Made by a program: the position numbers and the translations under genes. Below, piece after piece: positions 3,878-23,952 of a DNA stretch of 64,000 bases. The stretch's first letter is position 1. Each line of letters begins with the position of its first letter. Source of the stretch: a virus; the IMG/VR virus record IMGVR_UViG_3300028559_000029, positions 1 through 64,000 of that record. One strand, 5' to 3'. The notes under the pieces were generated by a model that saw nothing but the letters and a program-made list of their open reading frames with translations, was not told where the DNA came from and searched no databases.

Positions 3878-3880
3878 ATT

Positions 3881-5597: not shown

Positions 5598-5617
5598 ATA
5601 TTTAAAAAATACTTATA
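5598..5617 (-). promoter_or_regulatory. Late-type promoter element(s) for the 5592-2126 unit
   Basis: On the minus strand, TAAATAT (5604-5598) starts exactly 12 nt before the ATG at 5592. A second element, TATAAGTAT (5617-5609), lies just upstream. Both resemble the T4 late promoter TATAAATA. The same TAA(A/G)TAT element stands 12 nt before the ATG of five other late genes in this window. The intergenic space is only 28 bp and is shared with the divergent uvsY gene, whose own promoter must overlap it. Confidence 0.55.
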
Positions 5618-5620
5618 AAG

Positions 5621-7428: not shown

Positions 7429-8038
7429 AGCAAAAGCACTAAAAAATGATGATTTCATCGAATACTCGGAAGAAGAAGCTGAGTATTTAGGGTTAGATTT
7501 AAAAAAAGAAAATGATGATTCTGACGAAGATCGATTAGATGATGATGAAATTGTTAGTAAAGATGAAGATGATGAAGAGGTAGAGATCAAAATTGATTAT
7601 GATAAAAAACCTAAGAATAAAAAAAAGGCAGATAAAGAAAAGTTTTATGTAGATCCAAAAAATTTTGATACTAAAATTTTGGAATATTATGAAAGTGGAG
7701 TACTTTCTGATGAATTAGCGGAGATGGTTAGCAAGATCGCTCACAAACTAAGTTATGCTCCTAATTTTATAAATTATTCATACCGAGAAGAGATGGTAGG
7801 AGATGGTGTTATCAGAATGTTTAAAGCATTGATGTCTAAAAAATATAATCATGCAAAAGGAACAAATCCTTTTTCATATTTTACAAGAATTGCATTCAAT
7901 GCATTTAGAAATAGAATTAAAAAGGAAAAACACATACACGAAACACATGAAAAATACAAAAATGAATTTTTAATGTTTTCTGAAGGCTATAATAATCTTG
8001 TAAAAAATAATAAGACAAATAATATCAATAGAGAATGA
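7400..8038 (+). CDS. 55: gp55-like late-transcription sigma factor
   Basis: A 212-residue sigma-70-like protein related to T4 gp55. The conserved core lies at residues 90-185: SYREEMVGDGVIRMFKAL, then NPFSYFTRIAFNAFRNRIKKEK, which correspond to the sigma region 2 segments of gp55. It directs host RNA polymerase to TATAAATA-type late promoters. Odd points are an N-terminal extension of about 75 residues that is first basic and then strongly acidic (residues 35-60), and a C-terminal tail of Asn and Lys that lacks the short hydrophobic-acidic clamp-binding motif of T4 gp55. It starts inside uvsW and its stop overlaps the gene 47 start (ATGA). Confidence 0.85.
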   Translation: MNTRKKKYRKAKALKNDDFIEYSEEEAEYLGLDLKKENDDSDEDRLDDDEIVSKDEDDEEVEIKIDYDKKPKNKKKADKEKFYVDPKNFDTKILEYYESGVLSDELAEMVSKIAHKLSYAPNFINYSYREEMVGDGVIRMFKALMSKKYNHAKGTNPFSYFTRIAFNAFRNRIKKEKHIHETHEKYKNEFLMFSEGYNNLVKNNKTNNINRE

Positions 8039-9084
8039 GTTTAAAAGGTAAAAACATAGGAATATTTTCGGATATTCACATAGGATTAGGTCAAGATAGC
8101 TCGACATGGCACGATATTGTTTTGGATTTTGCTAAATGGGCTACCAAAATTTATTCCGAAGCAGGGATAAATGATATTATTATTACTGGTGATATATTTC
8201 ACAATAGAAGTGAAATAGGCGTTAATACCATTTCGGTTGCTAATGAATTTTTTGAAATTTTAAAGGATTTTAGAATTTTTATTTCAGTTGGAAATCATGA
8301 CAGTTTTTACAAAGACAGATCTGATGTTAATTCAGTCAGTATGCTAAAAGGATGGAAAAATATTACTATTGTTGATAAAAAACCTCTTATTATAGAATAT
8401 AAAAACAAAAAAATTTCTTTAATTCCGTGGGGAACTTCAATTGAAGATATTCCTAAATCTGATATTTGCTTTGGACATTTTGAAATTCAAAGTTTCTATA
8501 TGAATAATTTTAAAACGTGTGATCATGGGTTTGAATCATCAAATATTTTAGAAAAATCTCCATTAGTGTTTTCCGGCCACTTTCACAAGAAGGATGATAG
8601 AAAATACAATAAAGGTAGAATTGTTTATGTAGGAAGTCCATTCCAACAGAACTATGGAGATGCAGGGGATGATAGGGGAATTTATATTTTCAATATAGAA
8701 AACGAAGAATTAAAGTTCGTAGAAAATACGATTTCGCCTAAACATATAAAGATATTTTTAAGTAAATTGCGTGATAAAACGCAGGATGGTGATTATTTAA
8801 AGAATAATGTACCAAATAATATGGTATCTTTGATAATAGATGAGGAAATTCCGAATAATAAAATAGATTTATTAACTGCAAATATACAAAAATTTAACCC
8901 AAAGGCATTTAAACTTGATTATAAATCCGTTGTAGAAGAAAAACTTGAAAATTCTGATATTATAGATTATAATCTATTAGATATGGAAAAAAATATAGAA
9001 GATTTTGTAAACTCAATAGATATTGAGCATAAATCTGATATTATAGACTATCTAAACAATTTATACAAAGAACTAATAGCATGA
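8035..9084 (+). CDS. 47: gp47-like SbcD/Mre11-type recombination nuclease subunit
   Basis: A 349-residue calcineurin-like metallophosphoesterase. The metal-binding motifs are all present in order: DIHIG (about 13), GDIFHNR (about 52), GNHD (about 91), then a GHF and SGHFHK motif near 148 and 181. It fits the nuclease subunit that pairs with the SMC-like gp46 to resect double-strand ends for recombination-dependent replication. In T4 genes 47 and 46 are close neighbours; here gene 46 begins only at 20796, after the glycan cassette. The stop overlaps the start of the first cassette gene (ATGA). Confidence 0.92.
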   Translation: MSLKGKNIGIFSDIHIGLGQDSSTWHDIVLDFAKWATKIYSEAGINDIIITGDIFHNRSEIGVNTISVANEFFEILKDFRIFISVGNHDSFYKDRSDVNSVSMLKGWKNITIVDKKPLIIEYKNKKISLIPWGTSIEDIPKSDICFGHFEIQSFYMNNFKTCDHGFESSNILEKSPLVFSGHFHKKDDRKYNKGRIVYVGSPFQQNYGDAGDDRGIYIFNIENEELKFVENTISPKHIKIFLSKLRDKTQDGDYLKNNVPNNMVSLIIDEEIPNNKIDLLTANIQKFNPKAFKLDYKSVVEEKLENSDIIDYNLLDMEKNIEDFVNSIDIEHKSDIIDYLNNLYKELIA

Positions 9085-9833
9085 ATGATAAAATAGGAAT
9101 AGGAATTATTGATATATATGAACAAGAAGACTTGGATTCTTGTTATTCTTCAATACCAACAGAACTAAAAGAAAACGTTTTTGTTGTTTCATCAACAAAA
9201 AATAAAATGGTAAACGATCAGTATAGAGTATATGGAGAGGTTTCCATGGCAACCCTAAGAAACTGGTTGATTTCTCAGTTTAGAATTAAAAAATACAAAT
9301 ATTTTTTCTTACTTCACTCAAATCAAATAGTAGATGATCCAAACATTTTTGAAAAAACCATAAAATTAGGAGAAACGTTTGGAACTTGGTTTATTCTAGG
9401 CGATGGAAAGCACGGTCTTCCGCTGGAAGATGAGAATAGCGGAGCAACTCTATATGCTTCTCCAGAACTTAATAGTGAATTTATGTTCATGCTTTCCGGT
9501 ATTATCAGTAATAATGGGTATTTCGATGAAAGATTCTACAATACAAAAGATTTGGATGTTTTGGATTACGTAATAAGATTGCGTAAAAAAGGAGTATATC
9601 TTCCTGACAATTATCATCCAACAATTGGAGAAGGATTGAAAAAAAGCTACAATTTCATTAAAAGAATAGGACACAAAGAACTTCCAGATACTCATAGAAG
9701 CGTTGCTTTGTCGTATGCGTATTTTGTTCACAATAACAAGTATATACCCGGTCAAAATGATCCAACTGGAGTTACACAAGAACAGTTATTGCATTCATTA
9801 GAAACCTTACAAAAGAATTATGCAAAAAAATAA
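9081..9833 (+). CDS. Putative GT-A-like glycosyltransferase, first cassette gene
   Basis: A 250-residue protein whose layout resembles the next two genes: an opening strand (KIGIGIIDIYEQEDLDSCYSS), a middle strand followed by KYFFLLHSNQIVDDPNIF where family 2-like enzymes carry the metal-binding DxD, and a later segment with GYFDERFYNTKDLDVLDYVIR. The usual acidic DxD is replaced by HSNQIVDD, so it may bind a nucleotide-sugar in a different way or be catalytically inactive. It overlaps gene 47 by four bases and the next gene by 14, so it is translationally coupled to the recombination genes. Confidence 0.55.
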   Translation: MNDKIGIGIIDIYEQEDLDSCYSSIPTELKENVFVVSSTKNKMVNDQYRVYGEVSMATLRNWLISQFRIKKYKYFFLLHSNQIVDDPNIFEKTIKLGETFGTWFILGDGKHGLPLEDENSGATLYASPELNSEFMFMLSGIISNNGYFDERFYNTKDLDVLDYVIRLRKKGVYLPDNYHPTIGEGLKKSYNFIKRIGHKELPDTHRSVALSYAYFVHNNKYIPGQNDPTGVTQEQLLHSLETLQKNYAKK

Positions 9834-10671
9834 AATAGGTTTAGCGTTAATTACGTGTGATCGTTATAATTTTTTACAAAAAAGTTTAACATCAGTTTTA
9901 AAACATACCAATACATTTGAAAGTAATTTTTTTAAACTCATTGTAATAGATGATACCCCACCTTCTTTACGAGATAATAGCGTTTATGAAGGATTAGGGG
10001 TAGAAGTCATACATACTCAGGGAAAGGAAGGGGTAGGAATAGCCAAAAATTATGGACTTAAAGGTTTAAGTGATGCTGAATGTGAACATATCTTTCTTAT
10101 GGAAGATGATGTTGAGCTTTTAGATCATAAAATTTTTGATTTATACATTAACGCAGCAAAGACAACAGGAATAAAACATTTAAATTTTGGACTCCATGGA
10201 AACCATAATAGAAATTTAAACGGTGATCCCGTTTCTAGAAGAATTATAAATTATCCAGATCAAACTAAAATTATTCTATATCCAAATATATTAGGAGCAT
10301 TTAGTTATTATCATATAGATACCCTGAAAGATGTTGGACTCATCGATGAACAATTTTATAATGCATTGGAACATGTAGATCACACATATCAAATCATCAA
10401 AGCAGGATATCATCCTCATTTTAGATGGTTTGCTGACGTGCAAGATGCGGAAAATTATCTTAAAGATATTGTTCCTGATCATCAAAATAGCAAAATAAGA
10501 TCTCAAGAAGACTTTGCAGAAAATTTCTTAAAAAATCATGAGAGATTTGTTAAGAAAAACAATTTTGCGGTTGTTCAAGGATATGGACCAGTAGAAAACG
10601 AATATACAGAAGAAGAAGTTGTTAAAAATTTACAAGAAATATGGAAAAACCATGCGGAAAAATTGGCGTAG
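9820..10671 (+). CDS. GT-A-fold glycosyltransferase (family 2-like)
   Basis: A 283-residue protein with family 2-like features: an N-terminal strand LALITCDRYNFLQKSLTSVL, an IVIDDTPP segment, a HTQGKEGVGIAKNYGL substrate loop, and the metal-site strand HIFLMEDDVELLD near residue 92. A later GLIDEQFYNALEHVDHTYQI holds candidate catalytic acids. It begins 14 bases inside the previous gene and overlaps the next by 31. It is clearly a paralogue of the N-terminal domain of the following protein (shared NxxEHVDxxYxIIK pattern). Acceptor and donor sugars are unknown. Confidence 0.75.
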   Translation: MQKNKIGLALITCDRYNFLQKSLTSVLKHTNTFESNFFKLIVIDDTPPSLRDNSVYEGLGVEVIHTQGKEGVGIAKNYGLKGLSDAECEHIFLMEDDVELLDHKIFDLYINAAKTTGIKHLNFGLHGNHNRNLNGDPVSRRIINYPDQTKIILYPNILGAFSYYHIDTLKDVGLIDEQFYNALEHVDHTYQIIKAGYHPHFRWFADVQDAENYLKDIVPDHQNSKIRSQEDFAENFLKNHERFVKKNNFAVVQGYGPVENEYTEEEVVKNLQEIWKNHAEKLA

Positions 10672-12116
10672 GGATTATAACTTATAATAGACCTGAGTAT
10701 TATTCTCAAGTATTAAAAAGCATTCCAAGAGACAGGATAGATGCTCTTGTTATTGTTAATGATGGTAAAAATTCATATGTAAATGAATTGGATGGTGATT
10801 ATGTCATAAAACACAATGCTCAATTAGGAGTTTCTGTTTCTAAAAACCATGCCTTGCATTTTTTAATAGAAAAATTTGATTGTGAGTATCTATTTCTGAT
10901 TGAAGATGACATTATCATTAAAGATCCAAATGTATTTGATGAATATATCAAAACTGCAAACTCTACAGGAATACATCATTTGTGTTATGAAAAGGTAGCA
11001 GGTAACGAAAAAACATTAAAATATGTCTTAGAGCAGTGTGATGGAACTAAAGTAGGATTTTATCACAATCCACAGGGGGCATTTATGTATATAAATGCCA
11101 ATCTTATTAAAAAATTAGGATATTTTGATGAATCCTATATAAATGCATTTGAGCATGTGGATTTTGAATATAATTTAATAAAAAAAAACGTTGCTCCACC
11201 TTTTTGGTATTTTCCTGACGTGTTGAACAGCAATGATTATTTAACAGATATAGAAGGAAGCAGCGATAACTCTTCTATAACCAATAAAGAAAATTACAAA
11301 GAAAATGTTGAAAGGTCTGCAAGCCATTTTGTTAAAAAATGGGGACACTTTACCAATCAAATAGAGCCTGTTAGTAAAGATGAATTAGAAAACACTCTTT
11401 CCTTTTTACAATCAAATTATAGCAGGAAAAAAACTATAAATAAAAGCAAAAAACTTTCTGTTATAATACCATATAGAGATAGGAAAAAGGCATTAGACTT
11501 GTTAATACCAAAATTAAAGGGTTACATAGCAAAACAAGTAGAGAATTTTGAATTAATAGTAGCAGAACAAAATGATGATGAACTTTTTAATAAAGGACTT
11601 ATTAATAACATAGCCTTTTTATTAAATCCAAATTCAGATTACTACTGTTTTCATGATGTAGACTTATTGCCAGAGGTTGCTGATTACTCATACCCTGTAA
11701 ATCCTGTTCACATGAGCACTTATTGTAGTCAGTTCAATTATATCGAAGACCCTGCTGCTCTTATGGGTGGTGTGATTGTTTTTAGAAAAGAACATTTCGA
11801 GTTAGTAAATGGGTATCCAATAAATTGTGTGGGTTGGGGGTCTGAAGACAATATATTAGGAGAAAGAGTAAAAAAATCTGAATTAAATGTGTATAGATAT
11901 CCGTTTGGAAGGTTTTATTCTGTTCCACACACTCCCAGAATACAAAATCCTATAGAATGGGAAGCGCATTTAAAAAATGGAAAAATAAGAGAAGATGAAA
12001 TAGCAGGGAAGGTACATTTAAAAGACAATGGATTGTCTAACATAAATTTAAAATACTTTGAAATTTTAATAGAAAATTTTAATGACTATAAACACCTTAA
12101 AGTTAAAAAAACTTGA
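10641..12116 (+). CDS. Two-domain glycosyltransferase: GT2-like plus galactosyltransferase (GT7-like)
   Basis: A 491-residue fusion. Residues 1-265 are GT2-like, with GVGIITYNRPEYYSQVLKSI and the metal motif YLFLIEDDIII. Residues 275-491 resemble the beta-1,4-galactosyltransferase family 7 catalytic domain: LSVIIPYRDR, then YYCFHDVDLLPE (the DVD metal motif), then GGVIVFRKEHFELVNGYP and the signature GWGSEDNILGERV, which matches the family's GWGGEDDD donor/acceptor loop. Such an architecture suggests one protein adding two successive sugars. It overlaps the previous gene by 31 bases; a 40-bp gap follows. Confidence 0.8.
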   Translation: MEKPCGKIGVGIITYNRPEYYSQVLKSIPRDRIDALVIVNDGKNSYVNELDGDYVIKHNAQLGVSVSKNHALHFLIEKFDCEYLFLIEDDIIIKDPNVFDEYIKTANSTGIHHLCYEKVAGNEKTLKYVLEQCDGTKVGFYHNPQGAFMYINANLIKKLGYFDESYINAFEHVDFEYNLIKKNVAPPFWYFPDVLNSNDYLTDIEGSSDNSSITNKENYKENVERSASHFVKKWGHFTNQIEPVSKDELENTLSFLQSNYSRKKTINKSKKLSVIIPYRDRKKALDLLIPKLKGYIAKQVENFELIVAEQNDDELFNKGLINNIAFLLNPNSDYYCFHDVDLLPEVADYSYPVNPVHMSTYCSQFNYIEDPAALMGGVIVFRKEHFELVNGYPINCVGWGSEDNILGERVKKSELNVYRYPFGRFYSVPHTPRIQNPIEWEAHLKNGKIREDEIAGKVHLKDNGLSNINLKYFEILIENFNDYKHLKVKKT

Positions 12117-12156
12117 ATATTTTATAAAATAGTATAAAATATTACTTAATTTGAGT

Positions 12157-12699
12157 ATGAATAAAAGATTATCTATATTAACAGTAACACTAAACCAACG
12201 ATTGCCTGTTTTTCAAAATTTAGCCAGAATACTAAAGGCTCAATCAAACGATTCGGTGGAAATGTTGGCGGTTTGTGATAACGGAGAAAGATCCATAGGA
12301 GCAAAAAGAAACGACTTACTAGAAGCAGCAAAGGGCGATTATGTAGTTTTTGTCGATGATGATGACATGGTTTCTCCTTTTTATGTTTTTGGCATATTAG
12401 AAGCAATAAAATCAAATCCAGATTGTTGCGGAATCGAAGGAATTATAACTCAACATAAAATCGGACCTAAAAAATTTATACATTCTCTAAGATATCAAGA
12501 TTGGTTCGAAGAAAATGATATTTATTATAGATGTCCAAATCATTTAAATCCTATTAAAAGGGAAATAGCACTTGATGTAAGATTTCCAGATGCTTATTAT
12601 GCAGAAGATAAAGCATTTTCATATGGATTACAAGGAAAGTTAAAAACAGAAACTTATATACAAGGTCCAATATATTACTATTACCCATCTAGCACATAA
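12157..12699 (+). CDS. Family 2-like glycosyltransferase (short)
   Basis: A 180-residue GT-A protein. The opening RLSILTVTLNQRLPVFQNL, the SIGAKRNDLLEAAKGDYVVFVDDDDM block near residue 50-75 (nucleotide-binding loop plus DDDD metal site), and a Tyr-rich C-terminus fit glycosyltransferase family 2. I place the start at the ATG at 12157 rather than at the in-frame TTG two codons upstream. The 40-bp gap before it holds TTGAAT-N16-TAAAAT (12113-12140), a possible promoter with a leader of about 10 nt, so the second half of the cassette may be transcribed separately. Confidence 0.75.
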   Translation: MNKRLSILTVTLNQRLPVFQNLARILKAQSNDSVEMLAVCDNGERSIGAKRNDLLEAAKGDYVVFVDDDDMVSPFYVFGILEAIKSNPDCCGIEGIITQHKIGPKKFIHSLRYQDWFEENDIYYRCPNHLNPIKREIALDVRFPDAYYAEDKAFSYGLQGKLKTETYIQGPIYYYYPSST

Positions 12700-12701
12700 T
12701 T

Positions 12702-14024
12702 ATGAAATCAAACTTAAAACTATTAATTAAATTTCCAACCAGAGGAAGACCTGAAAAATTTTTTTCTGTATTGGACAAATATATAGAAATGTCTGAAAAT
12801 ATTTCTAAAACTGCATTTTTAATATCAATGGATAGCGATGATTCTTCTATGAATAACTCTTCTATTATTGATATATTAGAAGGTTATAGAAGTAGAATTA
12901 AATTAGCATATTTTTTTGGTGATAGTAAAACCAAAATTCAAGCTTGTAATGCTGATGTGGATAAAATAACTGGTTGGGATATTATAATGTTAGCATCTGA
13001 TGACATGATTCCGATGGTTAGGGGATATGATCAAATAGTTCGTAATGACATGTATGAAAACTTTAAAAATACTGATGGAGTTCTTTGGTATAATGATGGC
13101 GGACAAAATAATATAAATACATTGTCTATTTTAGGTCGAAAATATTACAATAGATTTGGATTTATATACAATCCTGAATATATAAGCCTTTGGTGTGATA
13201 ATGAATTTACTGATATATCAATTAAACTGGGAAAAGTGTATAGATCACAAGAGGTAATAATAGAGCATCAACACCCTGCATATCAAAAAACTAATTTTGA
13301 TCAATTATATGTAAGAAACGAATCGTATTTCAACATAGATAAAGAAACTTATATTAAAAGAAGTGAACGAAAATTTGATTTGAAAGATGTTTTGGTGTAT
13401 GTAGGAGCACATACGGGAAATAGTTTGCAAAACTATGTAGATAGTTATGATGAAATATATGCATTTGAAGCAAATCCAAATTTTTGCGAGTATTTAAAAC
13501 AAAGATTTAACCCGAATAAAAATGTAAAAATAATAAATGCTGCAATTTGTGAAAAACACAATGAATTTATAGATTTTAATATTTCCAAGAACAATGGTGA
13601 TTCTAGTTCTATTTTAAAAGCAAATAAAGAATCAAATTTATTTGATTTGATAGAAAGTAATCAAACAATAAAGGTTCCTACTATTAATTTAAAAAATTTC
13701 CTAGAGGAAAGAAATATTAAAATGATAAAATCTTATATAAGTGATACACAAGGATATGATTTTATCATTTTAAAAACATTAAAAAATTTGACTGATGATG
13801 GATTGATAGAAGAAATACAATGTGAAGTCGAAAAGAATAATAGCCCAACCATATATGTTAATGAAAACACAGAAAATCAAAACAAAGAGAAAAATTTTGA
13901 TGAATTTTTAAAGGAAAACTACACAAAAGTAGCAACCGGATGGGGAACTCTAGTAGAAAATAAATTTGAAATCGTACCAGAAGATTGGTCTGAATTTGAT
14001 GCTAAATGGAAATTAAAAAATTAA
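12702..14024 (+). CDS. Fusion of a GT-A-like domain and an FkbM-type methyltransferase
   Basis: A 440-residue protein. Residues 1-210 look like a GT-A-like glycosyltransferase: LLIKFPTRGRPEKFFSVL at the start, WDIIMLASDDMIP near residue 90, and NPEYISLWCDNEFTDISI around 165. Residues 225-430 are an FkbM-family SAM-dependent methyltransferase: VLVYVGAHTGNS (SAM loop), IYAFEANPNFCEYLKQRF (acidic residue at strand 2), and later IKSYISDTQGYDFIILKTL. FkbM enzymes O-methylate sugars or polyketides. It starts three bases after the previous stop and overlaps the next gene by 19 bases. A single protein that adds and then methylates a sugar is a reasonable inference. Confidence 0.72.
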   Translation: MKSNLKLLIKFPTRGRPEKFFSVLDKYIEMSENISKTAFLISMDSDDSSMNNSSIIDILEGYRSRIKLAYFFGDSKTKIQACNADVDKITGWDIIMLASDDMIPMVRGYDQIVRNDMYENFKNTDGVLWYNDGGQNNINTLSILGRKYYNRFGFIYNPEYISLWCDNEFTDISIKLGKVYRSQEVIIEHQHPAYQKTNFDQLYVRNESYFNIDKETYIKRSERKFDLKDVLVYVGAHTGNSLQNYVDSYDEIYAFEANPNFCEYLKQRFNPNKNVKIINAAICEKHNEFIDFNISKNNGDSSSILKANKESNLFDLIESNQTIKVPTINLKNFLEERNIKMIKSYISDTQGYDFIILKTLKNLTDDGLIEEIQCEVEKNNSPTIYVNENTENQNKEKNFDEFLKENYTKVATGWGTLVENKFEIVPEDWSEFDAKWKLKN

Positions 14025-14686
14025 TAACTTTTTGTGTATATGGAACCCATCCCATGTACAGTGTTGGTGCATTAAAAAATGCAGAATTGGCATTAAAATT
14101 ATATCCGGATTGGATCTGTAGATTTTATGTCTTTAAAGAATGTTTTCATCTGATACCAGATTTAGAAAAGTTTACAAACACTGAAATTGTATCATGTAAT
14201 AGAAAAGGCAGTCACTATTCTATGATGTATAGATTTTTGCCGTTTGGAGAAAAGGATGTCGAGTATTTCATGTCTAGAGACACTGATTCTAGATTGAGTT
14301 ATAGGGAAAAAGAAGCTGTTGATGAATGGTTGGCATCAAATAAAACATTTCATATAATGAAAGATCATCCCAAATATCATCGCACACCAGATTATCCAAT
14401 ACTAGGTGGTATGTTTGGTGCAAAGGGAAATATCATTGAAAATGCTCAACAAAAAATTATTGATTATGTAAACAATAATAAAGATATGCATGGTATGGAT
14501 CAGTATTTTTTACATTCTATATACCATCAGTTCGCATATAATGATAATATAACACATGACTGTGAGTTTCCATCTCCGAGAAATGTTGAAAGAGATAAAA
14601 TATGGTTTATAGGTCAACCTATTGATGAAAATGAAAATTTTTTTGGACCATCAGAAGATTATATTAAAAAATTAAACGAAAATTAA
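14006..14686 (+). CDS. Putative GT-A-like glycosyltransferase
   Basis: A 226-residue protein. It has an N-terminal LITFCVYGTHPMYSVGALKNAELALKLYP segment, a metal-site-like FMSRDTDSRLSYREKEAVDEWL near residue 90, and a later GMDQYFLHSIYH segment, a layout seen in small GT-A-fold proteins of polysaccharide clusters. The DTD triplet would be the metal ligand. It overlaps the preceding fusion gene by 19 bases and ends three bases before the epimerase gene. No precise family is claimed. Confidence 0.6.
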   Translation: MEIKKLITFCVYGTHPMYSVGALKNAELALKLYPDWICRFYVFKECFHLIPDLEKFTNTEIVSCNRKGSHYSMMYRFLPFGEKDVEYFMSRDTDSRLSYREKEAVDEWLASNKTFHIMKDHPKYHRTPDYPILGGMFGAKGNIIENAQQKIIDYVNNNKDMHGMDQYFLHSIYHQFAYNDNITHDCEFPSPRNVERDKIWFIGQPIDENENFFGPSEDYIKKLNEN

Positions 14687-14688
14687 AA

Positions 14689-15585
14689 ATGAAAAGTTTA
14701 GTTACTGGTGGTAAAGGATTCATAGGAAGTAGACTGGTTAAAAAATTATTAGAAGAAAATGATTCTGTATTTGTCATAGACAATAATAGTTCGAATAATA
14801 ATAATAATTTTATCATTAATGATGCATGTTATTATGATGAGGATCTGAAAAATTTTGATAATATTCTGCCTTTATTTGAAGGAGTGGATAGATGCTTTCA
14901 CTTAGCAGCAGATATATCAATTGATTATTGCAATAAATCACCAAGAGAAAGTGGATTAAACAATTCAAATATAACATTAAACACTTTAGAAGCATGTAGA
15001 TTAAATAATGTTAAAAAATTTATATTTTCTTCTACTTCTGCTGTGTATAAAAATAATTTTGAAAAAAATATTTATAAAGAAGACGATGAAACAAATCCAT
15101 TAAACATGTATTCGGCTTCAAAATTGTACGGAGAAAATCTTTGCAAAATTTATTATAATCTTTATGGAATAGAAACCATTTCACTCAGATATTTTAATGT
15201 TTATGGAGACAACAATTCGATTAGTCCATATTCTTCGGTTTTAGTAAATTTTTTGAACAATAAAAAAGAAAAAAAACCATTACTAATATATGGAGATGGA
15301 TTACAGACTAGAGATTTTGTTAATGTAGATGATGTTGTTGATATTAATATTAAAGCATCTAGAACTTGTTTAAATGAATATGGAGAAGTGTTCAATGTAG
15401 GTACTGGAAAATCCATTTCAATTGAAAAATTAGCATCATTGATATCAAATGATATCAAATTTACAGAACAAAAAAAAGCAGAATTAAAAAATAGTTGTGC
15501 TAATATAGATAAAACCAAAGACCATTTAGATTGGACTGCAAAAATTTTGATACAAGAATGGTTAGAAGGTATATTTAAAGTATGA
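14689..15585 (+). CDS. NAD-dependent sugar epimerase/dehydratase (extended SDR, GalE-like)
   Basis: A 298-residue extended short-chain dehydrogenase. The Rossmann motif is TGGKGFIGSRL (residues 6-16), the serine motif is FSSTSAVY, and the catalytic pair is YSASK (YxxxK, about 142-146). A substrate-side motif LRYFNVYGDNN and GDGLQTRDFVNVDDVV fit UDP-sugar 4-epimerases and dTDP/GDP-sugar modifiers. It would act in the cytoplasm on nucleotide sugars for the neighbouring transferases. Exact substrate is not evident. It overlaps the next gene by four bases. Confidence 0.85.
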   Translation: MKSLVTGGKGFIGSRLVKKLLEENDSVFVIDNNSSNNNNNFIINDACYYDEDLKNFDNILPLFEGVDRCFHLAADISIDYCNKSPRESGLNNSNITLNTLEACRLNNVKKFIFSSTSAVYKNNFEKNIYKEDDETNPLNMYSASKLYGENLCKIYYNLYGIETISLRYFNVYGDNNSISPYSSVLVNFLNNKKEKKPLLIYGDGLQTRDFVNVDDVVDINIKASRTCLNEYGEVFNVGTGKSISIEKLASLISNDIKFTEQKKAELKNSCANIDKTKDHLDWTAKILIQEWLEGIFKV

Positions 15586-16652
15586 ATTTTTTCAACATAG
15601 ATTTACACATATCCATCATAGCTGATATGAAAAAAATATTTACGGATAGTGGACATACCGTATACGATAAATCATTGTCAGAACATACTTGGGTTTTTAA
15701 TAGAAAAAAAGATAGCATTCCCATGCTCGATAATTCTAGATGGATGCATCTTACACCAGAACAATTTTCGAATGAATTTTATAATTTATATAAAGATCAA
15801 ATAGAAAACAAAGTTGATGCTTTTATTGTAACATACCCTCCGATATTTTCATTGCTGTATAAACACTTCAATAAGCCTATTATTATAAATAATCCCATCA
15901 GGTATGAATGGCCTTTTTCATTTAGGAAAAATGATTGGGAATATTTCAATAACTTCTTAAGAGAAGGAGTTGATAATAAAAAAATTTTTCTCGTTGCAAA
16001 TAATATTCATGACAAAAAATACATGGAAGATTTTATCGAAAGAGAGGTAGAACATATTCCTAGTATTTGTGATTATTATGGATCATTATATGAACAAACT
16101 GGTAATACTTTTATATATTATTCTAGAAATAAAATATCAGAAATAACCAACCCTAACATAAAATATAAAGATGATTTATTCAAATCACATACACATAATG
16201 ATTTAGTAAAGCATAGGGGAATAATACACATACCATATCAAATTTCTTATATGTCTATTTTTGAACAATATACATCAAATATACCATTATTTTTTCCTAC
16301 TAAAAAATTTTTAATGGAACTTTATATAGAAAATAAATATAGTGTTCTTAAAGAAGTTTCTTGGAACAATTATTGCGGAGAAGCGAGTAAATCTTTCATA
16401 GAATACAAAGGAAATCACGATCCTAATGATTATAATAACAATGAATCTGTAATGGAATGGTTAAAATATGCAGATTTTTATGACGAGGAATGGATGCCAT
16501 ATATTACATATTTTTCTTCATTTGAAGAATTAAATTCAATTGTAAATACTGTCGATGTTAATAAAATTTCAAATAATATGAAAAATTTTAATGAAACTAG
16601 AAAGTCTTTAATCTATAAAAAGTGGGATATTCTTATAAACAAAATAAAATGA
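15582..16652 (+). CDS. Unknown cassette protein, possibly a GT-B-like glycosyltransferase
   Basis: A 356-residue protein without a clear family signature. It alternates strands and helices across two halves. The second half contains HRGIIHIPYQISYMSIFEQYTSNIPLFFPTKKFLMEL, which has the feel of the donor-binding segment of GT-B enzymes, where a Glu precedes a 'G/N-I-P-hydrophobic' strand. It is also rich in Trp, Tyr and Asn. It overlaps both neighbours by four bases (ATGA), sitting between two sugar-nucleotide SDR enzymes, so a role in the same glycan pathway is inferred. Confidence 0.5.
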   Translation: MNFFNIDLHISIIADMKKIFTDSGHTVYDKSLSEHTWVFNRKKDSIPMLDNSRWMHLTPEQFSNEFYNLYKDQIENKVDAFIVTYPPIFSLLYKHFNKPIIINNPIRYEWPFSFRKNDWEYFNNFLREGVDNKKIFLVANNIHDKKYMEDFIEREVEHIPSICDYYGSLYEQTGNTFIYYSRNKISEITNPNIKYKDDLFKSHTHNDLVKHRGIIHIPYQISYMSIFEQYTSNIPLFFPTKKFLMELYIENKYSVLKEVSWNNYCGEASKSFIEYKGNHDPNDYNNNESVMEWLKYADFYDEEWMPYITYFSSFEELNSIVNTVDVNKISNNMKNFNETRKSLIYKKWDILINKIK

Positions 16653-17674
16653 AAATATTGATAACTGGTGGCTTAGGATTTATAGGAATAAATACCGCAT
16701 TAACTTTAGGAATCGAGCATGAAATATTTATTATTGATAATCTTAGCAGAAAAGGAAATATAGAAAATTATACAAATTTAAAAAATAAAATTAATTTTAT
16801 TTTTTGGAATAAAGATATAAGAAATTATTTTGATTTAGAAGATATTTTTAAAAATAATAAATTTGATGCGGTTATACATTTAGCAGGACAAGTTGCGGTT
16901 ACTACTTCATTTAAAAATCCTAGAGAAGATTTTGAGATAAACTGTTTGGGAACATTTAATATATTAGAATGTATTAGAAAACATTCTATAAATTCTATTT
17001 TATTATATTCTTCTACAAATAAAGTATATGGGGATTTTAAATCAAAAATTAAAGAAAATGATACTAGATATTCATATGCAGATAATACTATTGGCATAAA
17101 TGAAAATCAAGGATTGGATTTTCACTCACCGTATGGTTGCTCCAAGGGGTCTGCTGATCAATATGTCAGAGATTATCATAGAATGTACGGATTAAAAACC
17201 GTTGTCCTTCGACAATCATGCATATATGGCCCTAATCAGTTCGGAATAGAAGATCAGGGATGGGTATCATGGTTTAGCATAGCTTCGTTATTTGATAAAA
17301 ATGTTACAATATATGGAAATGGTAAGCAAGTTAGGGATATTCTTCATGTAAATGATTTGATACAACTATATATAAGCATAATTAACAATATTAACATTTG
17401 TAATGGTAAAATATATAATGTTGGTGGAGGCCCAACAAACACGCTTTCTCTCTTAGAATTGATAGATAATTTAAAAATTAAATTAAACAAACCGATACAA
17501 TACAATATTTCCGATTGGAGACCCGGAGATCAAAAAATTTATATAAGTGATATCAGTAAAATCAAAAACGATATCGATTGGAATCCAAAAATTAATGTAA
17601 ACGAAGGATTGACTCTAATGTTGGATTGGATTGTCGGAAATAAACAAATTTTTAAAAATTTAAATTTAATATGA
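16649..17674 (+). CDS. CDP-paratose/tyvelose 2-epimerase-like SDR enzyme
   Basis: A 341-residue extended SDR. The Rossmann motif is ITGGLGFIGINTA, the serine motif is YSSTNKVYGD, the catalytic pair is YGCSK in HSPYGCSKG, and LRQSCIYGPNQFGIEDQGWV is very like the signature of CDP-paratose 2-epimerase (RfbE/TyvE), which interconverts CDP-paratose and CDP-tyvelose. I chose the ATG at 16649 because it makes the ATGA overlap used by its neighbours and gives the Rossmann strand directly at the N-terminus; a longer frame starting nine codons upstream is less likely. No CDP-glucose dehydratase gene is in the window, so the substrate would have to come from elsewhere. Confidence 0.75.
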   Translation: MKILITGGLGFIGINTALTLGIEHEIFIIDNLSRKGNIENYTNLKNKINFIFWNKDIRNYFDLEDIFKNNKFDAVIHLAGQVAVTTSFKNPREDFEINCLGTFNILECIRKHSINSILLYSSTNKVYGDFKSKIKENDTRYSYADNTIGINENQGLDFHSPYGCSKGSADQYVRDYHRMYGLKTVVLRQSCIYGPNQFGIEDQGWVSWFSIASLFDKNVTIYGNGKQVRDILHVNDLIQLYISIINNINICNGKIYNVGGGPTNTLSLLELIDNLKIKLNKPIQYNISDWRPGDQKIYISDISKIKNDIDWNPKINVNEGLTLMLDWIVGNKQIFKNLNLI

Positions 17675-18543
17675 AAATACTTATGTCAGATATTTTTCTT
17701 GCAGGTCAAGAAAATTGCGATTGGAAAGAAGGGTTTGAATTTCTATATGCTTTTAGAAATTTAGGACATACATGTGATATAGCAGGTAAAAATTGTCAAA
17801 TTCCAGAACAAGAAATTCCTAATATTGCTAATAATTATGATTTAATTATAATTACGGAAAATTATCCAGTTGATTCGAGATGGAATTGGTGGGATTGGAA
17901 ACAAATTAAAACTCCTAAGTTATTCTGGGCGATTGATGCTCATATAATTGATTTCAAACCTTGGTTTGATCATGTTAATATGGATTATGTTGCTTTCAAT
18001 AATCCAGAAGACATAGAAAGCTATAACATGCCAAATTCTTTTTGGCTTCCGTATGCAGCATCGACTGAACATTCTTTCGTCGAGCATACAAAGGAAAAGA
18101 AGCGAGATATTGTTTTCATAGGTGCATTAATGGAAGAAAGAAAGAGGTTGTGCGAAAAATTCAACATTGAATGTGTCAAGGCACTCGGTCCTAATTATGT
18201 AAAAGAAATGCAAATGTCTAAAATATGTTTCAATCATTCTAGAGCATATAATAAAAAAACTAATATCAATGCCAAGTATTTTGAAATATTATCGAGCGGT
18301 TCTTTTATGTTAACAGATTATAATGAAAATTTTCATAAATACGTAAATTATAATGAAGACATAACGAGAATGTTTTATTATTCAGATGAAGATTTAGAGA
18401 AAAAAATAAATTACTATTTAAACAACGAAGAGGAAAGAGAGGAAATAGCACTAAAAGCAAAGAACTATATTAAAGAAAATCATACTTATGAAAATAGAGC
18501 GGAATATATCCTACAAGAAATACAAAGGTTAAATAAACAATGA
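17671..18543 (+). CDS. GT-B glycosyltransferase, CgeB-like
   Basis: A 290-residue protein resembling CgeB-type glycosyltransferases. The N-terminal half reads a target-like KILMSDIFLAGQENCDWKEGFEFLYAFRNLGH and a WWDWKQIKTPKLFWAIDAHIIDF segment. The C-terminal half has IVFIGALMEERKRL, then the donor-site KYFEILSSGSFMLTDYNENF, the 'E-x-x-x-x-G' motif typical of family 1-like GT-B enzymes, and ends with a helix that closes such folds. It overlaps both neighbours by four bases. Confidence 0.72.
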   Translation: MKILMSDIFLAGQENCDWKEGFEFLYAFRNLGHTCDIAGKNCQIPEQEIPNIANNYDLIIITENYPVDSRWNWWDWKQIKTPKLFWAIDAHIIDFKPWFDHVNMDYVAFNNPEDIESYNMPNSFWLPYAASTEHSFVEHTKEKKRDIVFIGALMEERKRLCEKFNIECVKALGPNYVKEMQMSKICFNHSRAYNKKTNINAKYFEILSSGSFMLTDYNENFHKYVNYNEDITRMFYYSDEDLEKKINYYLNNEEEREEIALKAKNYIKENHTYENRAEYILQEIQRLNKQ

Positions 18544-19163
18544 TAACAATTCAAGAACATACTATAGAAGAATCCATCATAAATAAAGAAGGATGGGTCT
18601 TGGACTTGGGGTGTATAAATTTTTCATTTTCCAAAGATATTAAACAATATTGTAATAATATAATATGTGTAGATCCAAATCCCAGTATCGATACAAATAT
18701 AGTACCAGATGGAGTATTTTACGAAAGTGTAGCAATTACTCATGATGAAAAAATATCAGAGCAAACATTTTATATATACAATGACGTACAAGGATATTCT
18801 TTATTAAATCCGCCTAGAGATTGGTGTGTTTTACAAAAAACTATTACGGTTCCAGTAACAACGATTAAAAAAATAATGGAAAAATATGGAATTAAAAAAT
18901 TTGAATTAATAAAATTTGATATTGAAGGAGCAGAATATGAAATATTAAAAAATTTAGACTGGTCAGTGTCTAAGCAATATTCAATAGAATTTCATGATTT
19001 TAGATCCATGAACCCATATTATCCAGATAATGAAAAGTATTATAGAGAACTTTTTGATAGTATTAAAAATGTTAAACACATTAAGCATGAAATAACAGAT
19101 CATGCTGGATTTCCATCTGGCATGGGAAGAAATTATTGGGATAGTCTTATTGTAATGGAATGA
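18540..19163 (+). CDS. FkbM-family methyltransferase
   Basis: A 207-residue SAM-dependent methyltransferase. The SAM loop is WVLDLGCINFSFSKDI (residues about 20-35), the ribose-binding acid is in IICVDPNPS, and FELIKFDIEGAEYEILKNL (about 122-140) is the FkbM hallmark. FkbM proteins usually methylate hydroxyls of sugars in polysaccharides or natural products. It overlaps both neighbours by four bases. It is the second of three FkbM domains in this cassette. Confidence 0.85.
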   Translation: MITIQEHTIEESIINKEGWVLDLGCINFSFSKDIKQYCNNIICVDPNPSIDTNIVPDGVFYESVAITHDEKISEQTFYIYNDVQGYSLLNPPRDWCVLQKTITVPVTTIKKIMEKYGIKKFELIKFDIEGAEYEILKNLDWSVSKQYSIEFHDFRSMNPYYPDNEKYYRELFDSIKNVKHIKHEITDHAGFPSGMGRNYWDSLIVME

Positions 19164-20083
19164 TGCACATGTATTATAATACTCAAATAGAAGACTTGAA
19201 TGATATAAAACTATATCAAGAGGGATTGGAAGCAACTAACAATTCTCTAGAAATAAGCAAAAAAATTTTAAATCCTATCGATGAAAAATATAACATATTT
19301 ATATATTGGATAGGTAATAATGTTACTTACAAACATTCTGTTGTATTAAAATCATTTTTAGCCACTCAAAATTTAAAAAATGCAACTTTAAAAATTTATT
19401 CGGACAAAGATTTATCAAAAAATCCAATTTTTGATAGATATAAACATTTTAAACAAATTGAATTTAACATATTTGATGTAGAAGAAGAAATTAAAGGAAC
19501 TGTTTATGAAAATTTTAAATATGTTCAAGAAATAAAGCAACACAAATTCAATCCTGCATACGAATCTGATTTTTTTAGATTATTAATGTTATATAAATAT
19601 GGAGGGTTTTATATAGATTTTGATATTCTTATATTACGAGATCTTTCTCCGCTTATGAACTATGATTTTTTCTATCAATGGGGAGCATATCCAGATAATA
19701 ATAACTGGATAAATGGTGCGGTGATGCATTTAAAAAAGTATAGCAAAGCAAATAATTACGCATCAAATTTAATATTAAATACTTACGCAATCCCCTACAG
19801 CTTGAACTGGGCATCAGAGCTTTATCTACAGGTAAAACACGTTCATCCGGAGCTTGTAATATTTCCAGCAGCATTTTTTAATAGCGAATGGCAATGCAAT
19901 CACTTAGAAAATGTTACAAAAAATATAACAGAGCATCCTTTTAAAAAAAATTCTCGTAGTAATGATTTATTTGAAGGTGCATTTACGTGGCATTGGCATA
20001 ATCGATGGAATGAAGATATAGAAGAAGGTTCTAAATTTAATATTTTAGATAGCATATTAGAAGAAAAATTCATTAAAATTTAA
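19160..20083 (+). CDS. Glycosyltransferase with DXD sugar-binding domain (GT32/OCH1-like)
   Basis: A 307-residue protein. The motif ESDFFRLLMLYKYGGFYIDFDILILRDL (residues about 134-161) is the classic DXD region of the Gly_transf_sug family (capsular and OCH1-like alpha-mannosyl/glycosyltransferases): SDxxRxxxLYxxGGxYxDxD. The final TWHWHNRWN may hold a further ligand. The opening YNIFIYWIGNNVTYKHSVVLKSF agrees with a GT-A start. It overlaps the FkbM gene upstream and is followed by a 42-bp gap with a late-type promoter. Confidence 0.85.
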   Translation: MMHMYYNTQIEDLNDIKLYQEGLEATNNSLEISKKILNPIDEKYNIFIYWIGNNVTYKHSVVLKSFLATQNLKNATLKIYSDKDLSKNPIFDRYKHFKQIEFNIFDVEEEIKGTVYENFKYVQEIKQHKFNPAYESDFFRLLMLYKYGGFYIDFDILILRDLSPLMNYDFFYQWGAYPDNNNWINGAVMHLKKYSKANNYASNLILNTYAIPYSLNWASELYLQVKHVHPELVIFPAAFFNSEWQCNHLENVTKNITEHPFKKNSRSNDLFEGAFTWHWHNRWNEDIEEGSKFNILDSILEEKFIKI

Positions 20084-20110
20084 AAATATATAAGTGATTT
20101 TTAGTTATGA

Positions 20111-20122
20111 TAAGTATATAAT
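20111..20122 (+). promoter_or_regulatory. Late-type promoter before the last cassette gene
   Basis: TAAGTATA at 20111-20118 overlaps TATAAT at 20117-20122 and lies 15 nt before the ATG at 20126. The element matches the TAA(A/G)TAT motif found before tail genes, so the last FkbM gene may have its own late promoter within the 42-bp gap. Distance to the start is slightly longer than the usual 12. Confidence 0.4.
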
Positions 20123-20125
20123 ATT

Positions 20126-20740
20126 ATGTACAGTCAAAATGATGAAGATAAAATTTTACTAGAATACTACAAAGATAAAAGCGATGGAGTATTGATTGAA
20201 ATAGGTGCATTTGAAAGTAAAAAGTTCTCAAATTCTAGAGCTTTGATTGAAAAGGGATGGATTGCTTATCTGATAGATGCATCACCATTTTGTATTTCAA
20301 AATTATTTGAAGAATATAAAGAAAATTCTAAAATTCATATAATACAAAGTATTGTTACAAAAACAAAAGAATCTGGATTAATATCGTTTTGGGATTCTCC
20401 GTTTTCAGCATTTAGTTCTACTAATAAAGACAATCTTAAAAGATGTCACAAATCACCAGAAGAATTTGATAAAAAAACCAGAGAAATATTCCTTAGTAGC
20501 ATATCTATAAATGAAATATTAGAATTTGTAAAAAAACGCGAAGGTACTGTAGATTTTTTATCTATTGATGTAGAAGGATTTTCTGCTGAATTAGCACTTG
20601 AAGTTGATTTGAATGTAGTAAAACCTAGTTGTATGTGCATCGAACATGACAAAAGTTATGAAAAAATCATAAGAAAATTTTGGAATGATTACGAAAAGAA
20701 GCTTATAAACCTAGAAAATCTCATAATAGTAAAAAAATAA
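20126..20740 (+). CDS. FkbM-family methyltransferase
   Basis: A 204-residue protein with SAM-binding DGVLIEIGAFESKKFSNSRAL at residues 20-40, an acidic residue in WIAYLIDASPFCISKL, and the FkbM motif VDFLSIDVEGFSAELALEVDL near residue 146. It opens with MYSQNDEDKILLEYYKDK, the 'SQ..ED..L..YF' start common in FkbM-like proteins. It is the third FkbM domain of the cassette and is separated from the others by a possible promoter. The methyl acceptor is probably a sugar hydroxyl. Confidence 0.82.
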   Translation: MYSQNDEDKILLEYYKDKSDGVLIEIGAFESKKFSNSRALIEKGWIAYLIDASPFCISKLFEEYKENSKIHIIQSIVTKTKESGLISFWDSPFSAFSSTNKDNLKRCHKSPEEFDKKTREIFLSSISINEILEFVKKREGTVDFLSIDVEGFSAELALEVDLNVVKPSCMCIEHDKSYEKIIRKFWNDYEKKLINLENLIIVKK

Positions 20741-20784
20741 CACTTTTTTAAATATATTGAGTTGAAATATATTTAAAATAATAT

Positions 20785-20797
20785 ACTCTTAAAGAGT
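20785..20797. promoter_or_regulatory. Perfect 13-base palindrome over the gene 46 start
   Basis: ACTCTT-A-AAGAGT is a perfect inverted repeat around one base and includes the first two bases of the proposed GTG start of gene 46. TATACT at 20782-20787 could be a -10. A further AT-only inverted repeat (TTAAATATAT / ATATATTTAA) lies at about 20748-20776. These could be an operator or RNA hairpin for gene 46, but the palindrome is short. Confidence 0.3.
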
Positions 20798-22592
20798 GAA
20801 AAAAATTGTATTTGAGAAAATTTTTATAAAAAATTTTTTATCTATAGGAGAGCAAGAAGTTTGTTTAGAGTTTAAAAATGGAACAAATCTTATAACAGGA
20901 ACAAATTGCGACAATTCTGGTAGGAATGGTGTCGGAAAAAGTTCTATTATAGAATCTATATACTGGGTGTTATTTGGTTCCACGACCAGAGAAATCAAAA
21001 AAGACAAAATAATTCACAATCAATCAAAAAAAGATTGTGAAGTTACGTTGACATTCTCCTTAAAAGAGGGGGAGACTACAAATAATTGTAAAATTATTCG
21101 TTCACTAGAACCTAATAAAGTCTCTCTGTTTAGAGATGATGAAGATGTAACGTTATCTACAATGCCCAAGACCGACGAACGCATTAAAGAGCTTATAGGA
21201 GCAAATGAAGAGGTATTCCAGAATGCAGTGATAATGACTGCAAACAATACGATGCCATTTATGGCTCAGAAAAAAATAGACAAACGAAAATTTGTAGAAG
21301 GTATTTTAAATTTGGGAATTTTCAGTGAAATGTTGTTAAAGGTCAGATCACATTACAATGAATACAAAAAAGAAAATGATATATTAGCATCTTCATTCAA
21401 TACACAGAATAGAAATTTAAATCTATATCAAGATCAAATAGAAAAAAATAAAAAAATAAAAGAAGATAAGATAACAAATTTATTGGAAAAAATTCAATCC
21501 AATACTGAAAAAATTAATATATTTTCAAACAATTCCTCAATAGAAGAGGAAATTAAAGCAAAAAGAGAAGAAATTGAAAATAAAAAGAATTTTTTTATAA
21601 AATTAGAAGATGGTTTGGAAAAAACCGAAACAAAACTACAAGAAAAATTAAAAAAACAGTTAACGAATGATTTTAAGGTTAAAAATTCAAAGGATGAAAT
21701 AAAATCTATAGAAGAAAAAACTGGAATATGCCCAACATGTAAAAGAAAATATGATTTTGATGATTCTTGCGTTGATTTAGACCAATTAAAACAAAATTTA
21801 AAAACTAATTTAACTCTGCAATCAGATACAAATGGAGAAATTTCTACAATAGCAGAAAAAAAAGTCAAAATAAAAACGGCAATTCGAGAAACTAAAAATT
21901 TTATCGACTTAACAGATAAAGATATACAAAAATTGCTGTTGACTTCACAAGAAATAGGCCATTTGCAGACTAGAAATGATGAAATCTTGAGCGAAATAGA
22001 ACAAATTAAGAATACAAAGGATAGCGTATTTGATTTTATAGAAAAAATTGAAAAAGAGATAGTAGAAACTGAAGAAAAATTGCAAAAACTTCAAAAACAA
22101 CTTTTAATTTTAGAAAATGCAAAATTTGTTGTTTCAGAAGAAGGTGTTAAAACCTTTATTGTTAAAAAAATGCTTTCTGTCTTAAATGCACAGTTAAATT
22201 ATTATTTAAAAACATTAGGTGCTCCCTGTACTTGTTATTTTAATGAAATGTTTGAAGAAACAATCTATAATTCAAATTCAAAGGAGTGTTCTTATTTTAA
22301 TTTTAGTGGAGGAGAGCGAAAAAGAATAGATATTGCAATATTATTCATGTTTCAAGATATTTTAAGAATGCAGACTGGTATTTCATTTAATATTAGCATG
22401 TATGACGAATTATTTGACTCTGCGTTAGATGAAAATGGAGTATTAAAAGTTTTTGATGTTTTAAAGGAAAGATCGGAAAAATTTGAAGAAGCTATCTATG
22501 TAATTTCACATAATAAAGCTGCAATAAACACAAATTTTAGTAATATTATTGAATTACAGAAGAAAAATGGAAAAACAACTATAGTTTCTTGA
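20796..22592 (+). CDS. 46: gp46-like SbcC/Rad50-type recombination ATPase
   Basis: A 598-residue SMC-like protein. Walker A is GRNGVGKSS (residues about 42-50), a long coiled coil covers about 190-460 with a zinc hook CPTC in its centre (about 311), the signature motif is NFSGGERKRIDIA (about 502-514), and Walker B is SMYDELFDSAL (about 530). With gp47 it resects DNA ends for recombination-dependent replication. The start is GTG at 20796, giving MKKIVFEKIFIKNFLSI; no in-frame ATG lies close. It is separated from gene 47 by the 11.7-kb cassette. Confidence 0.92.
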   Translation: MKKIVFEKIFIKNFLSIGEQEVCLEFKNGTNLITGTNCDNSGRNGVGKSSIIESIYWVLFGSTTREIKKDKIIHNQSKKDCEVTLTFSLKEGETTNNCKIIRSLEPNKVSLFRDDEDVTLSTMPKTDERIKELIGANEEVFQNAVIMTANNTMPFMAQKKIDKRKFVEGILNLGIFSEMLLKVRSHYNEYKKENDILASSFNTQNRNLNLYQDQIEKNKKIKEDKITNLLEKIQSNTEKINIFSNNSSIEEEIKAKREEIENKKNFFIKLEDGLEKTETKLQEKLKKQLTNDFKVKNSKDEIKSIEEKTGICPTCKRKYDFDDSCVDLDQLKQNLKTNLTLQSDTNGEISTIAEKKVKIKTAIRETKNFIDLTDKDIQKLLLTSQEIGHLQTRNDEILSEIEQIKNTKDSVFDFIEKIEKEIVETEEKLQKLQKQLLILENAKFVVSEEGVKTFIVKKMLSVLNAQLNYYLKTLGAPCTCYFNEMFEETIYNSNSKECSYFNFSGGERKRIDIAILFMFQDILRMQTGISFNISMYDELFDSALDENGVLKVFDVLKERSEKFEEAIYVISHNKAAINTNFSNIIELQKKNGKTTIVS

Positions 22593-22627
22593 TTTATATG
22601 TAAATTAATGTTAGTATAGAGTATATT

Positions 22628-23947
22628 ATGATAAAAATAAAAGAATCTGAAACCTTGGATAAGAAAGCAGTAGATAATTCAAACAGTATTGTGTATGAAT
22701 ATTCGTTTGTAAATGGTGGTATACCAAATTTGCCTAATGCTTCTCCGATTGGAATGCCGAAGTATAGCTATGTTGAGTTAAAACCAGTAAAAATACCTGC
22801 TCCTGCTCCCGTTGAAATGCCTGAAGCTGGATTGCCAAGGAGCATAAACTATTATGCAGACTACGGTGGGTGCGGTAATTGGAGAATGATTTGGCCGGAA
22901 TTTTGTTTGAATAGTTACAACAAGGCAATTGTTACTGGATTGACTAGTATGGTGCTAGATCTTAGATTTTATCAAAATGTAAAGTCCATTAGAATGCAAA
23001 GACAGGCTACCCCCGCACAAGCAGCATTTATTGGTGAGTTGAAGAAGGCTCAATCGAATTTTGGTTATAGATTGCTTTATGAAGTCGATGATATCGTCTT
23101 CAGAGATGACATTCCAGACTATAATAGATGTAAAGATGCATTTACCGATCAAACTATTGTAGATAATATTCTTAAAATAATGGGAATGATGGATGAAATT
23201 ACCGTAACATGTCAATACATGAAAGAGTATTATATTAATAAGACTGGTAATAAAAATATTACGGTTATTCCAAACTATGCTCCTAAATTTTGGTTAGATA
23301 GATTTTATCATAAGGAACGTATAGAAAAACTATACGATAAAAACAAAAAGCGTCCTAGAATTTTATATGCAGGTTCTGGAACACACATCGACACTACAAA
23401 TAGGACTGGAATGAAAGATGACTTCCATCATGTTGTTGATGAAATTATCAAAGCTAGAAAGAAATTTAAGTTTGTTTGGAAGGGTTGTTACCCACTTGCG
23501 GTAAAACCATTCATTGATAATGGTGAGATGGAGTTTATTAACTGGTCTGCACTATTGGATCTTCCAAAAGCCTTGTATGATGCGGGATGCAATGCAACTT
23601 TTGCTCCTTTGGTTAATAATGTTTTTAATAAATCAAAAAGCAATATCAAAATGGTGGAATCTGGTGCTTTAGGGCTTCCGGGTACGTATCAAAACCTCTG
23701 TACCTATGAAGAAGCAGAGTTTAAGTTTGATGATGGTAGGGATCTTATCTCTCAACTGGAACATATTACCTCTGATGTTGGTAGATATATGAAATATTCC
23801 GAAAGGGCTAGAGAATTTACCGATAAATTATGGCTGGAAGACCATTTAGACGAGTATCAAGCCTTGTATACAACTCCGTGGGGGTCAAAGGAGCGAAATG
23901 AAATGTCTTCAACTCTTATAAAACTAAATCCTGATCAAAAGGTATAA
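22628..23947 (+). CDS. GT-B glycosyltransferase-like protein
   Basis: A 439-residue protein. After a Pro-rich N-terminal segment (residues 30-70) it has a Gly-rich ADYGGCGNWRMIWPE loop, an EVDDIVF segment and, in the second half, PRILYAGSGTHIDTTNRTGM (start of the GT-B C-terminal domain), FKFVWKGCYP and the donor-site region KSNIKMVESGALGLPGTY with the E-x-x-x-x-G pattern. It lies between gene 46 and DNA polymerase, outside the main cassette. TATAGA stands 13 nt before the ATG, so it may have its own promoter. Base composition is less AT-rich than in the cassette. Confidence 0.7.
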   Translation: MIKIKESETLDKKAVDNSNSIVYEYSFVNGGIPNLPNASPIGMPKYSYVELKPVKIPAPAPVEMPEAGLPRSINYYADYGGCGNWRMIWPEFCLNSYNKAIVTGLTSMVLDLRFYQNVKSIRMQRQATPAQAAFIGELKKAQSNFGYRLLYEVDDIVFRDDIPDYNRCKDAFTDQTIVDNILKIMGMMDEITVTCQYMKEYYINKTGNKNITVIPNYAPKFWLDRFYHKERIEKLYDKNKKRPRILYAGSGTHIDTTNRTGMKDDFHHVVDEIIKARKKFKFVWKGCYPLAVKPFIDNGEMEFINWSALLDLPKALYDAGCNATFAPLVNNVFNKSKSNIKMVESGALGLPGTYQNLCTYEEAEFKFDDGRDLISQLEHITSDVGRYMKYSERAREFTDKLWLEDHLDEYQALYTTPWGSKERNEMSSTLIKLNPDQKV

Positions 23948-23952
23948 AATAC

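Follow-up and report, generated by a model that had tools for sequence, protein, structure and literature searches.

We analysed the first 64,000 nucleotides (the window) of the IMG/VR virus record IMGVR_UViG_3300028559_000029, which is 70,743 bases long and, judged by its genes, belongs to an uncultured T4-like lineage. In this window the recombination genes gp47 and gp46 are separated by an island of thirteen plus-strand genes, c1 to c13 (9081-20740), most of which resemble enzymes of glycan synthesis. The whole lineage appears to retain a glycan operon at this one site, in which a fixed core is joined to an exchangeable block. We read the island as a lineage-specific, modular glycan-assembly operon whose most likely acceptor would be a virion protein, with a particle glycan that would differ from phage to phage; we hold this reading tentatively, at a shade under even.

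The surroundings of the island are ordinary for a T4-like phage. A UvsW-like helicase (starting at 6013), a gp55-like sigma factor (7400), gp47, c1-c13, gp46, a further glycosyltransferase (GT) that we call GTx, and DNA polymerase (23988) follow one another on the plus strand (Table 1; identities are from Pfam, PHROGs, NCBIfam and PDB sequence searches). The order helicase-gp55-gp47-gp46 is the same in cyanophages S-SSM5 and P-RSM6, where one small open reading frame (ORF) lies between gp47 and gp46, and RB69 has two small ORFs at this position. In twelve reference phages (RB69, S-SSM5, P-RSM6, P-SSM2, S-SM2, P-TIM68, S-CAM1, S-CAM7, ACG-2014f, HTVC008M, Cr30 and phiM12), the matches to the two genes were only about 0.15-0.7 kb apart, which bears out the view, put forward in an initial annotation of this DNA, that gp47 and gp46 are T4-like neighbours split by a cassette. 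Because the synteny around the island is standard and the spacing in reference phages is small, the interval is best described as an insertion. It is not an assembly artefact, as close relatives share its junctions. The GC content of the island genes (25-32%) is similar to that of the flanks and therefore does not indicate a recent foreign origin.

The initial annotation had correctly placed the start of the first gene at 9081 and the stop of the last at 20740, and had counted twelve genes where thirteen are present; we also improved the start positions of c4 (12157) and c9 (16649). The many ATGA overlaps it described came to six (gp47/c1, c7/c8, c8/c9, c9/c10, c10/c11 and c11/c12), among them the overlap of the first gene with the gp47 stop; the remaining junctions are overlaps of 14-31 nt or gaps of 2-55 nt. 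The gp47/c1 overlap was seen again in relatives, and such conserved overlaps make it likely that the island is co-transcribed with gp47 and gp46; its translation may also be coupled to that of the recombination genes. By profile or fold, the island holds at least seven GT genes, two sugar-nucleotide short-chain dehydrogenase/reductases (SDRs) and three FkbM domains, in agreement with the six or seven, two and three first proposed. FkbM assignments passed curated cut-offs, with PF05050 for the C-terminal domain of c5, c11 and c13, and TIGR01444 for c5 and c11. A glycan-modification cassette is thus supported, and what had been overlooked is that the conserved set extends beyond gp46 to include GTx.

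Table 1. Genes and features of the gp47-gp46 region, in window coordinates.
Feature	Description	Position	Strand	Evidence
gp47	SbcD-like, left border	8035..9084	+	Metallophos PF00149; ~30% identity to isolate T4-like gp47
c1	first island gene, conserved; GT-A fold, pseudo-GT candidate	9081..9833	+	phrog_2456, E 7e-5 (weak)
c2	GT2 glycosyltransferase, always adjoining c1	9820..10671	+	PF00535, phrog_2456
c3	two-domain GT: GT2-like N half, beta-1,4-galactosyltransferase-like (GT7) C half	10641..12116	+	PF13733/PF02709 above cut-off; N half phrog_2456
c4	GT2	12157..12699	+	PF00535; phrog_14775/8858
c5	GT-like N domain fused to FkbM methyltransferase	12702..14024	+	phrog_14945, PF05050, TIGR01444 above cut-off
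c6	DTD motif, family F16, retained in some relatives	14006..14686	+	70-76% homologues in L064 and G005
c7	SDR nucleotide-sugar epimerase	14689..15585	+	PF01370 3e-52; PDB epimerases
c8	possibly GT, co-moving with c7-c11	15582..16652	+	82% homologue in L064
c9	SDR, CDP-tyvelose 2-epimerase-like	16649..17674	+	phmmer 8e-103 to CDP-tyvelose 2-epimerase
c10	GT, GT-B type (Glyco_trans_1_2)	17671..18543	+	PF13524 3e-22
c11	FkbM methyltransferase	18540..19163	+	PF05050 2e-13; TIGR01444 above cut-off
c12	DXD-containing sugar transferase (Gly_transf_sug)	19160..20083	+	PF04488 1e-12
c13	FkbM-like methyltransferase	20126..20740	+	PF05050 barely over cut-off
Exchanged block	different genes in closest relative G001	13389..19934	+	unalignable with G001 except one 117-bp stretch at 77%
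gp46	SbcC-like, right border	20796..22592	+	SMC_N/AAA_23; matches isolate T4-like gp46
GTx	conserved GT immediately 3' of gp46	22628..23947	+	phrog_7162, E 1e-19

The insertion is a property of the lineage, which we take, from the identifiers of the metagenomes that yielded some of the contigs, to be of freshwater (apparently lake) origin, and in which neither gp46 nor gp47 has an isolate relative at ≥60% identity. Both genes could be located in 29 lineage records, and in every one of these the interval between them measured 3,952-16,674 bases (median 9,232); in a distant contig, L034, it was 246 bases. Wherever the junction could be read, c1-like and c2-like genes lay directly 3' of gp47, and c3, c4 and the N domain of c5 were frequent. 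Related phages therefore share a conserved core in the same place and order, which favours the coherent cassette initially proposed. In a diverse sample of 100 island proteins taken from relatives, FkbM, GDP-mannose dehydratase/epimerase, GT47, GT2, GT-B, fucosyltransferase and nucleotidyltransferase families were the most frequent in Pfam. The closest relative, G001, has 202,880 bases and is considered complete on the strength of a 123-base terminal direct repeat; the three GT2 matches and two FkbM matches in its genome all fall within the island.

The core begins with two neighbouring paralogues. An AlphaFold2 model of c1 (pLDDT 80) adopts a GT-A fold, with Z scores of about 15 against K4CP (chondroitin polymerase), B4GALNT1 and others. 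The acidic metal-binding motif (EDD/DXD) is lost in all 27 c1 members, in which HSN, xSN or a similar triplet replaces EDD, and it is retained in 28 of 28 members of the c2 family. The initial annotation of the GT genes needs amending on this point; c1 is a candidate pseudo-glycosyltransferase retained beside an active GT, c2, its inactivity being suggested by the missing motif. In c2, c3 and c4 the catalytic motifs are intact, which favours that annotation, since it had named a lack of catalytic residues as grounds for doubting a coherent pathway. The c3 family profile matched beta4GalT1 and beta4GalT7 with E values of 1e-30 to 1e-28, and alignment to beta4GalT1 showed the DVD and GWGxED motifs of GT7 enzymes in its C half. 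In relatives, the closest among them (L020:14668-15939), the c5 N domain is joined to a GT2 domain and not to FkbM; in the closest relative this amounts to a swap of domains at the margin of the exchanged block.

That block provides the best evidence that the variable 3' genes function together. G001 is 93.6% identical to the window over 5601-13388 and 93.8% identical over 19935-26570, and between these stretches the two phages carry different genes; past the swapped block, in c13, identity returns to 99%. In contig L064, identity to the window is 49% for gp46, 71% for GTx and 64% for polymerase, yet 82-85% for c8, c9 and c11. Because this module is closer to the window than its own flanks are, transfer of the block between distant members of the lineage is probable. 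Exchange as a unit supports the idea that these genes work together, and with the conserved core it strengthens the earlier claim of one pathway for the whole island, although its singleness is still presumed.

The islands of relatives also contain genes of opposite orientation. In G001 three minus-strand genes, one of them an exostosin-like GT47, sit within the plus-strand island (L020:16624-18736), and in L009 ORF family F21 has two antisense members (4178-4744 and 13168-13869, minus strand), inserted among the island genes and in the GTx-polymerase interval. F21, which is also found in L019 and has no clear Pfam family, is possibly a mobile ORF. Direct repeats in the island were limited to short imperfect pairs.

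GTx has 411 relatives among IMG/VR contigs, of which we fetched 80, and 0 matches at 1e-5 in 50,697 isolate-phage records; there was no confirmed match in the GTDB genomes scanned for a host hint, and plasmids gave weak partial matches only. GTx adjoins gp46 directly or past a short insertion in almost all relatives, and is better conserved than gp46 among those compared. Its structure model was too poor to use (pLDDT 47.6) and was set aside. This conservation bears on the possibility that the site is a loosely selected insertion hot spot, at which sugar genes pile up between gp47 and gp46 without sharing a pathway. The cargo is indeed highly variable, and for the cyanophage clusters a role as packaging stuffer was once raised as a possibility (PMC3037559). 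However, c1 and c2 are kept in place and order, the reading frames are intact, GTx outdoes gp46 in conservation, and the co-moving module is more alike than its flanks. We consider a hot spot of this kind improbable.

A virion protein is favoured as acceptor because c4 and the N domain of mycobacteriophage Che8 gp108 are homologous (31% identity over 181 aa, E 3e-23, with shared PHROGs). The gp108 gene adjoins gp109 and gp110, and gp108 is itself a GT-methyltransferase fusion, like c5. Che8 gp110 is reported to be essential for capsid glycosylation (PMC12363180), and glycans are present on the Che8 capsid (PMC11256854). Mycobacteriophage GTs are also among the best isolate-phage matches of c2 and of the N half of c3. 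In addition, hydrophobic segments were found in none of c1-c13 or GTx and were absent from 463 of 470 island proteins of relatives, the other seven having one marginal segment each. The island proteins thus appear soluble, and show no sign of a flippase, a polymerase or a GtrA-like component.

We therefore infer co-expression, a single pathway and a virion acceptor, in a scheme as follows. The island, splitting gp47 from gp46, would be transcribed with the recombination genes. The core (c1/c2, often c3-c5, plus GTx) would start and extend a glycan on a cytoplasmic acceptor. In the hypervariable block (here c6-c12), the SDRs c7 and c9 would make unusual nucleotide sugars, which the block would then add; the next-best solved family for c9 scored only 9e-41 in the PDB sequence search. 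O-methylation by FkbM enzymes would cap the glycan. If the acceptor is a capsid or tail protein, each phage would carry its own particle glycan.

Several points weigh against this scheme, in which the virion protein is a candidate acceptor. Neither the window proteins nor the family profiles gave a significant match to Che8 gp110, a distant homologue being possible, and in profile searches c6 had no Pfam or PHROG match and c8 no profile match. The major capsid protein seemed at first sight a suitable substrate, as gp23 of the lineage (L129-L135) combines a near-invariant core with seven hypervariable stretches rich in Ser, Thr, Gly and Asn, the C-terminus among them; a more divergent set of cyanophages has similar loops, and we dropped them as evidence of an acceptor. 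The C-terminus of gp19 was likewise rejected, being short and without a clear signal. Soluble GTs can also build a lipopolysaccharide (LPS) core on host lipids, and modification of the host surface would account just as well for the matches of c2 and the N half of c3 to temperate enterobacterial phages.

Such remodelling, in which the LPS or capsule of the infected cell would be altered to exclude other phages or to block re-adsorption of progeny, is the principal alternative. It is the role proposed for the GT genes of pelagimyophages (PMC7029224), and cyanophage clusters have been described as LPS genes (PMC3037559). Heptose enzymes, fucosyltransferases and GT25 are among the cargo carried by the islands of relatives, and the hypervariability of the island would suit the matching of variable hosts; the recombination genes to which it is linked are early or middle genes in T4. 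What speaks for a virion acceptor instead is the kinship of c4 with a gene from a virion-glycosylation cluster, together with the lack of an evident GtrA/GtrB, flippase, polymerase, ligase or other membrane part in the island. On balance we regard host-surface remodelling as a real contender, if less likely than a virion acceptor.

DNA, one of three targets named in the initial annotation, is disfavoured. Decoration of modified phage bases as protection against restriction, as in T4, RB69 and Thanatos, would fit an island sited among DNA-metabolism genes. T4-like phages do glycosylate their DNA. Thanatos links a pentose to cytosine (PMC12838424). However, PF00303 (dCMP hydroxymethylase/thymidylate synthase) had two matches in the RB69 control and 0 in nine lineage records, of which one is complete. 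Pfam searches with the island proteins of the window returned no T4 DNA glucosyltransferase family, and a set that includes SDR and FkbM genes is more than DNA glucosylation would require. A search for the TET/JBP-type hydroxylase PF12851 gave 0 matches anywhere, the controls included, and so had no working positive control. Because the island proteins are soluble and a complete relative has no enzyme for hydroxymethyl-dC, we regard DNA as a very improbable target, more so than any other considered here.

The T4 late-promoter motif TATAAATA occurred 11 times in the window against 16.6 expected by chance and gave no indication of timing; sigma-70 promoters were fewer than in shuffled sequences. 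Just upstream of the helicase-gp55-gp47 run lie six minus-strand genes (2126-5592), one of which (2126-2944, minus strand; PF13469/PF00685) encodes a sulfotransferase that could sulfate the glycan or a protein; two others checked in this block had no clear Pfam family. The sulfotransferase had one match per genome in seven of seven lineage genomes searched, at varying positions.

Returning to the virion-glycan operon, we speculate that it may constitute a combinatorial, serotype-like system, in which a fixed core with an obligate pair of inactive c1 and active c2 is combined with a horizontally exchanged block that rewrites the outer glycan, in an abundant uncultured T4-like lineage; of this fuller picture we are less confident than of the operon as such. 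It would predict a diversity of glycan types among otherwise near-identical phages that share one habitat. The core set is small (c1, c2, c3 and GTx) and makes the target of phage glycan clusters testable.

Most demonstrations of glycosylated phage particles come from mycobacteriophages, and we know of no LPS-like phage cluster with a demonstrated function. With Che8 gp108-gp110 the island shares a phage-encoded cluster of soluble GTs, the homology between c4 and the gp108 N domain, and a GT-methyltransferase fusion; it differs in having 13-14 genes, its own sugar-nucleotide enzymes, a T4-like phage background and the gp47-gp46 site, and in being known from its genes alone. T4 and RB69, which glucosylate or arabinosylate DNA, are also T4-like phages with GTs, unlike this lineage in that the latter lacks the PF00303 hydroxymethylase. 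Seroconversion clusters (GtrABC) require membrane proteins, and the island has neither membrane-bound GtrA/GtrB nor a multispanning Gtr. The LPS clusters of cyanophages P-SSM2, S-SM2 and S-SSM7 resemble it as large glycan gene clusters in aquatic T4-like phages, but they are located near hli03 or phoH (PMC3037559), and P-SSM2 and S-SM2 have no gp47-gp46 insert. Pelagimyophages, likewise uncultured aquatic T4-like phages, have a hypervariable GT-rich region, but their GTs lie in a host-recognition cluster (PMC7029224) and the gp47-gp46 spacing of HTVC008M is only about 0.7 kb; freshwater pelagimyophages are reported to be without LPS genes (PMC7029224). We found no description of a gp47-gp46 glycan island in the open-access literature, to which our search was confined, subscription papers lying outside it. 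Thus, large glycan clusters in aquatic T4-like phages are already known, and the placement between gp47 and gp46 appears to be new.

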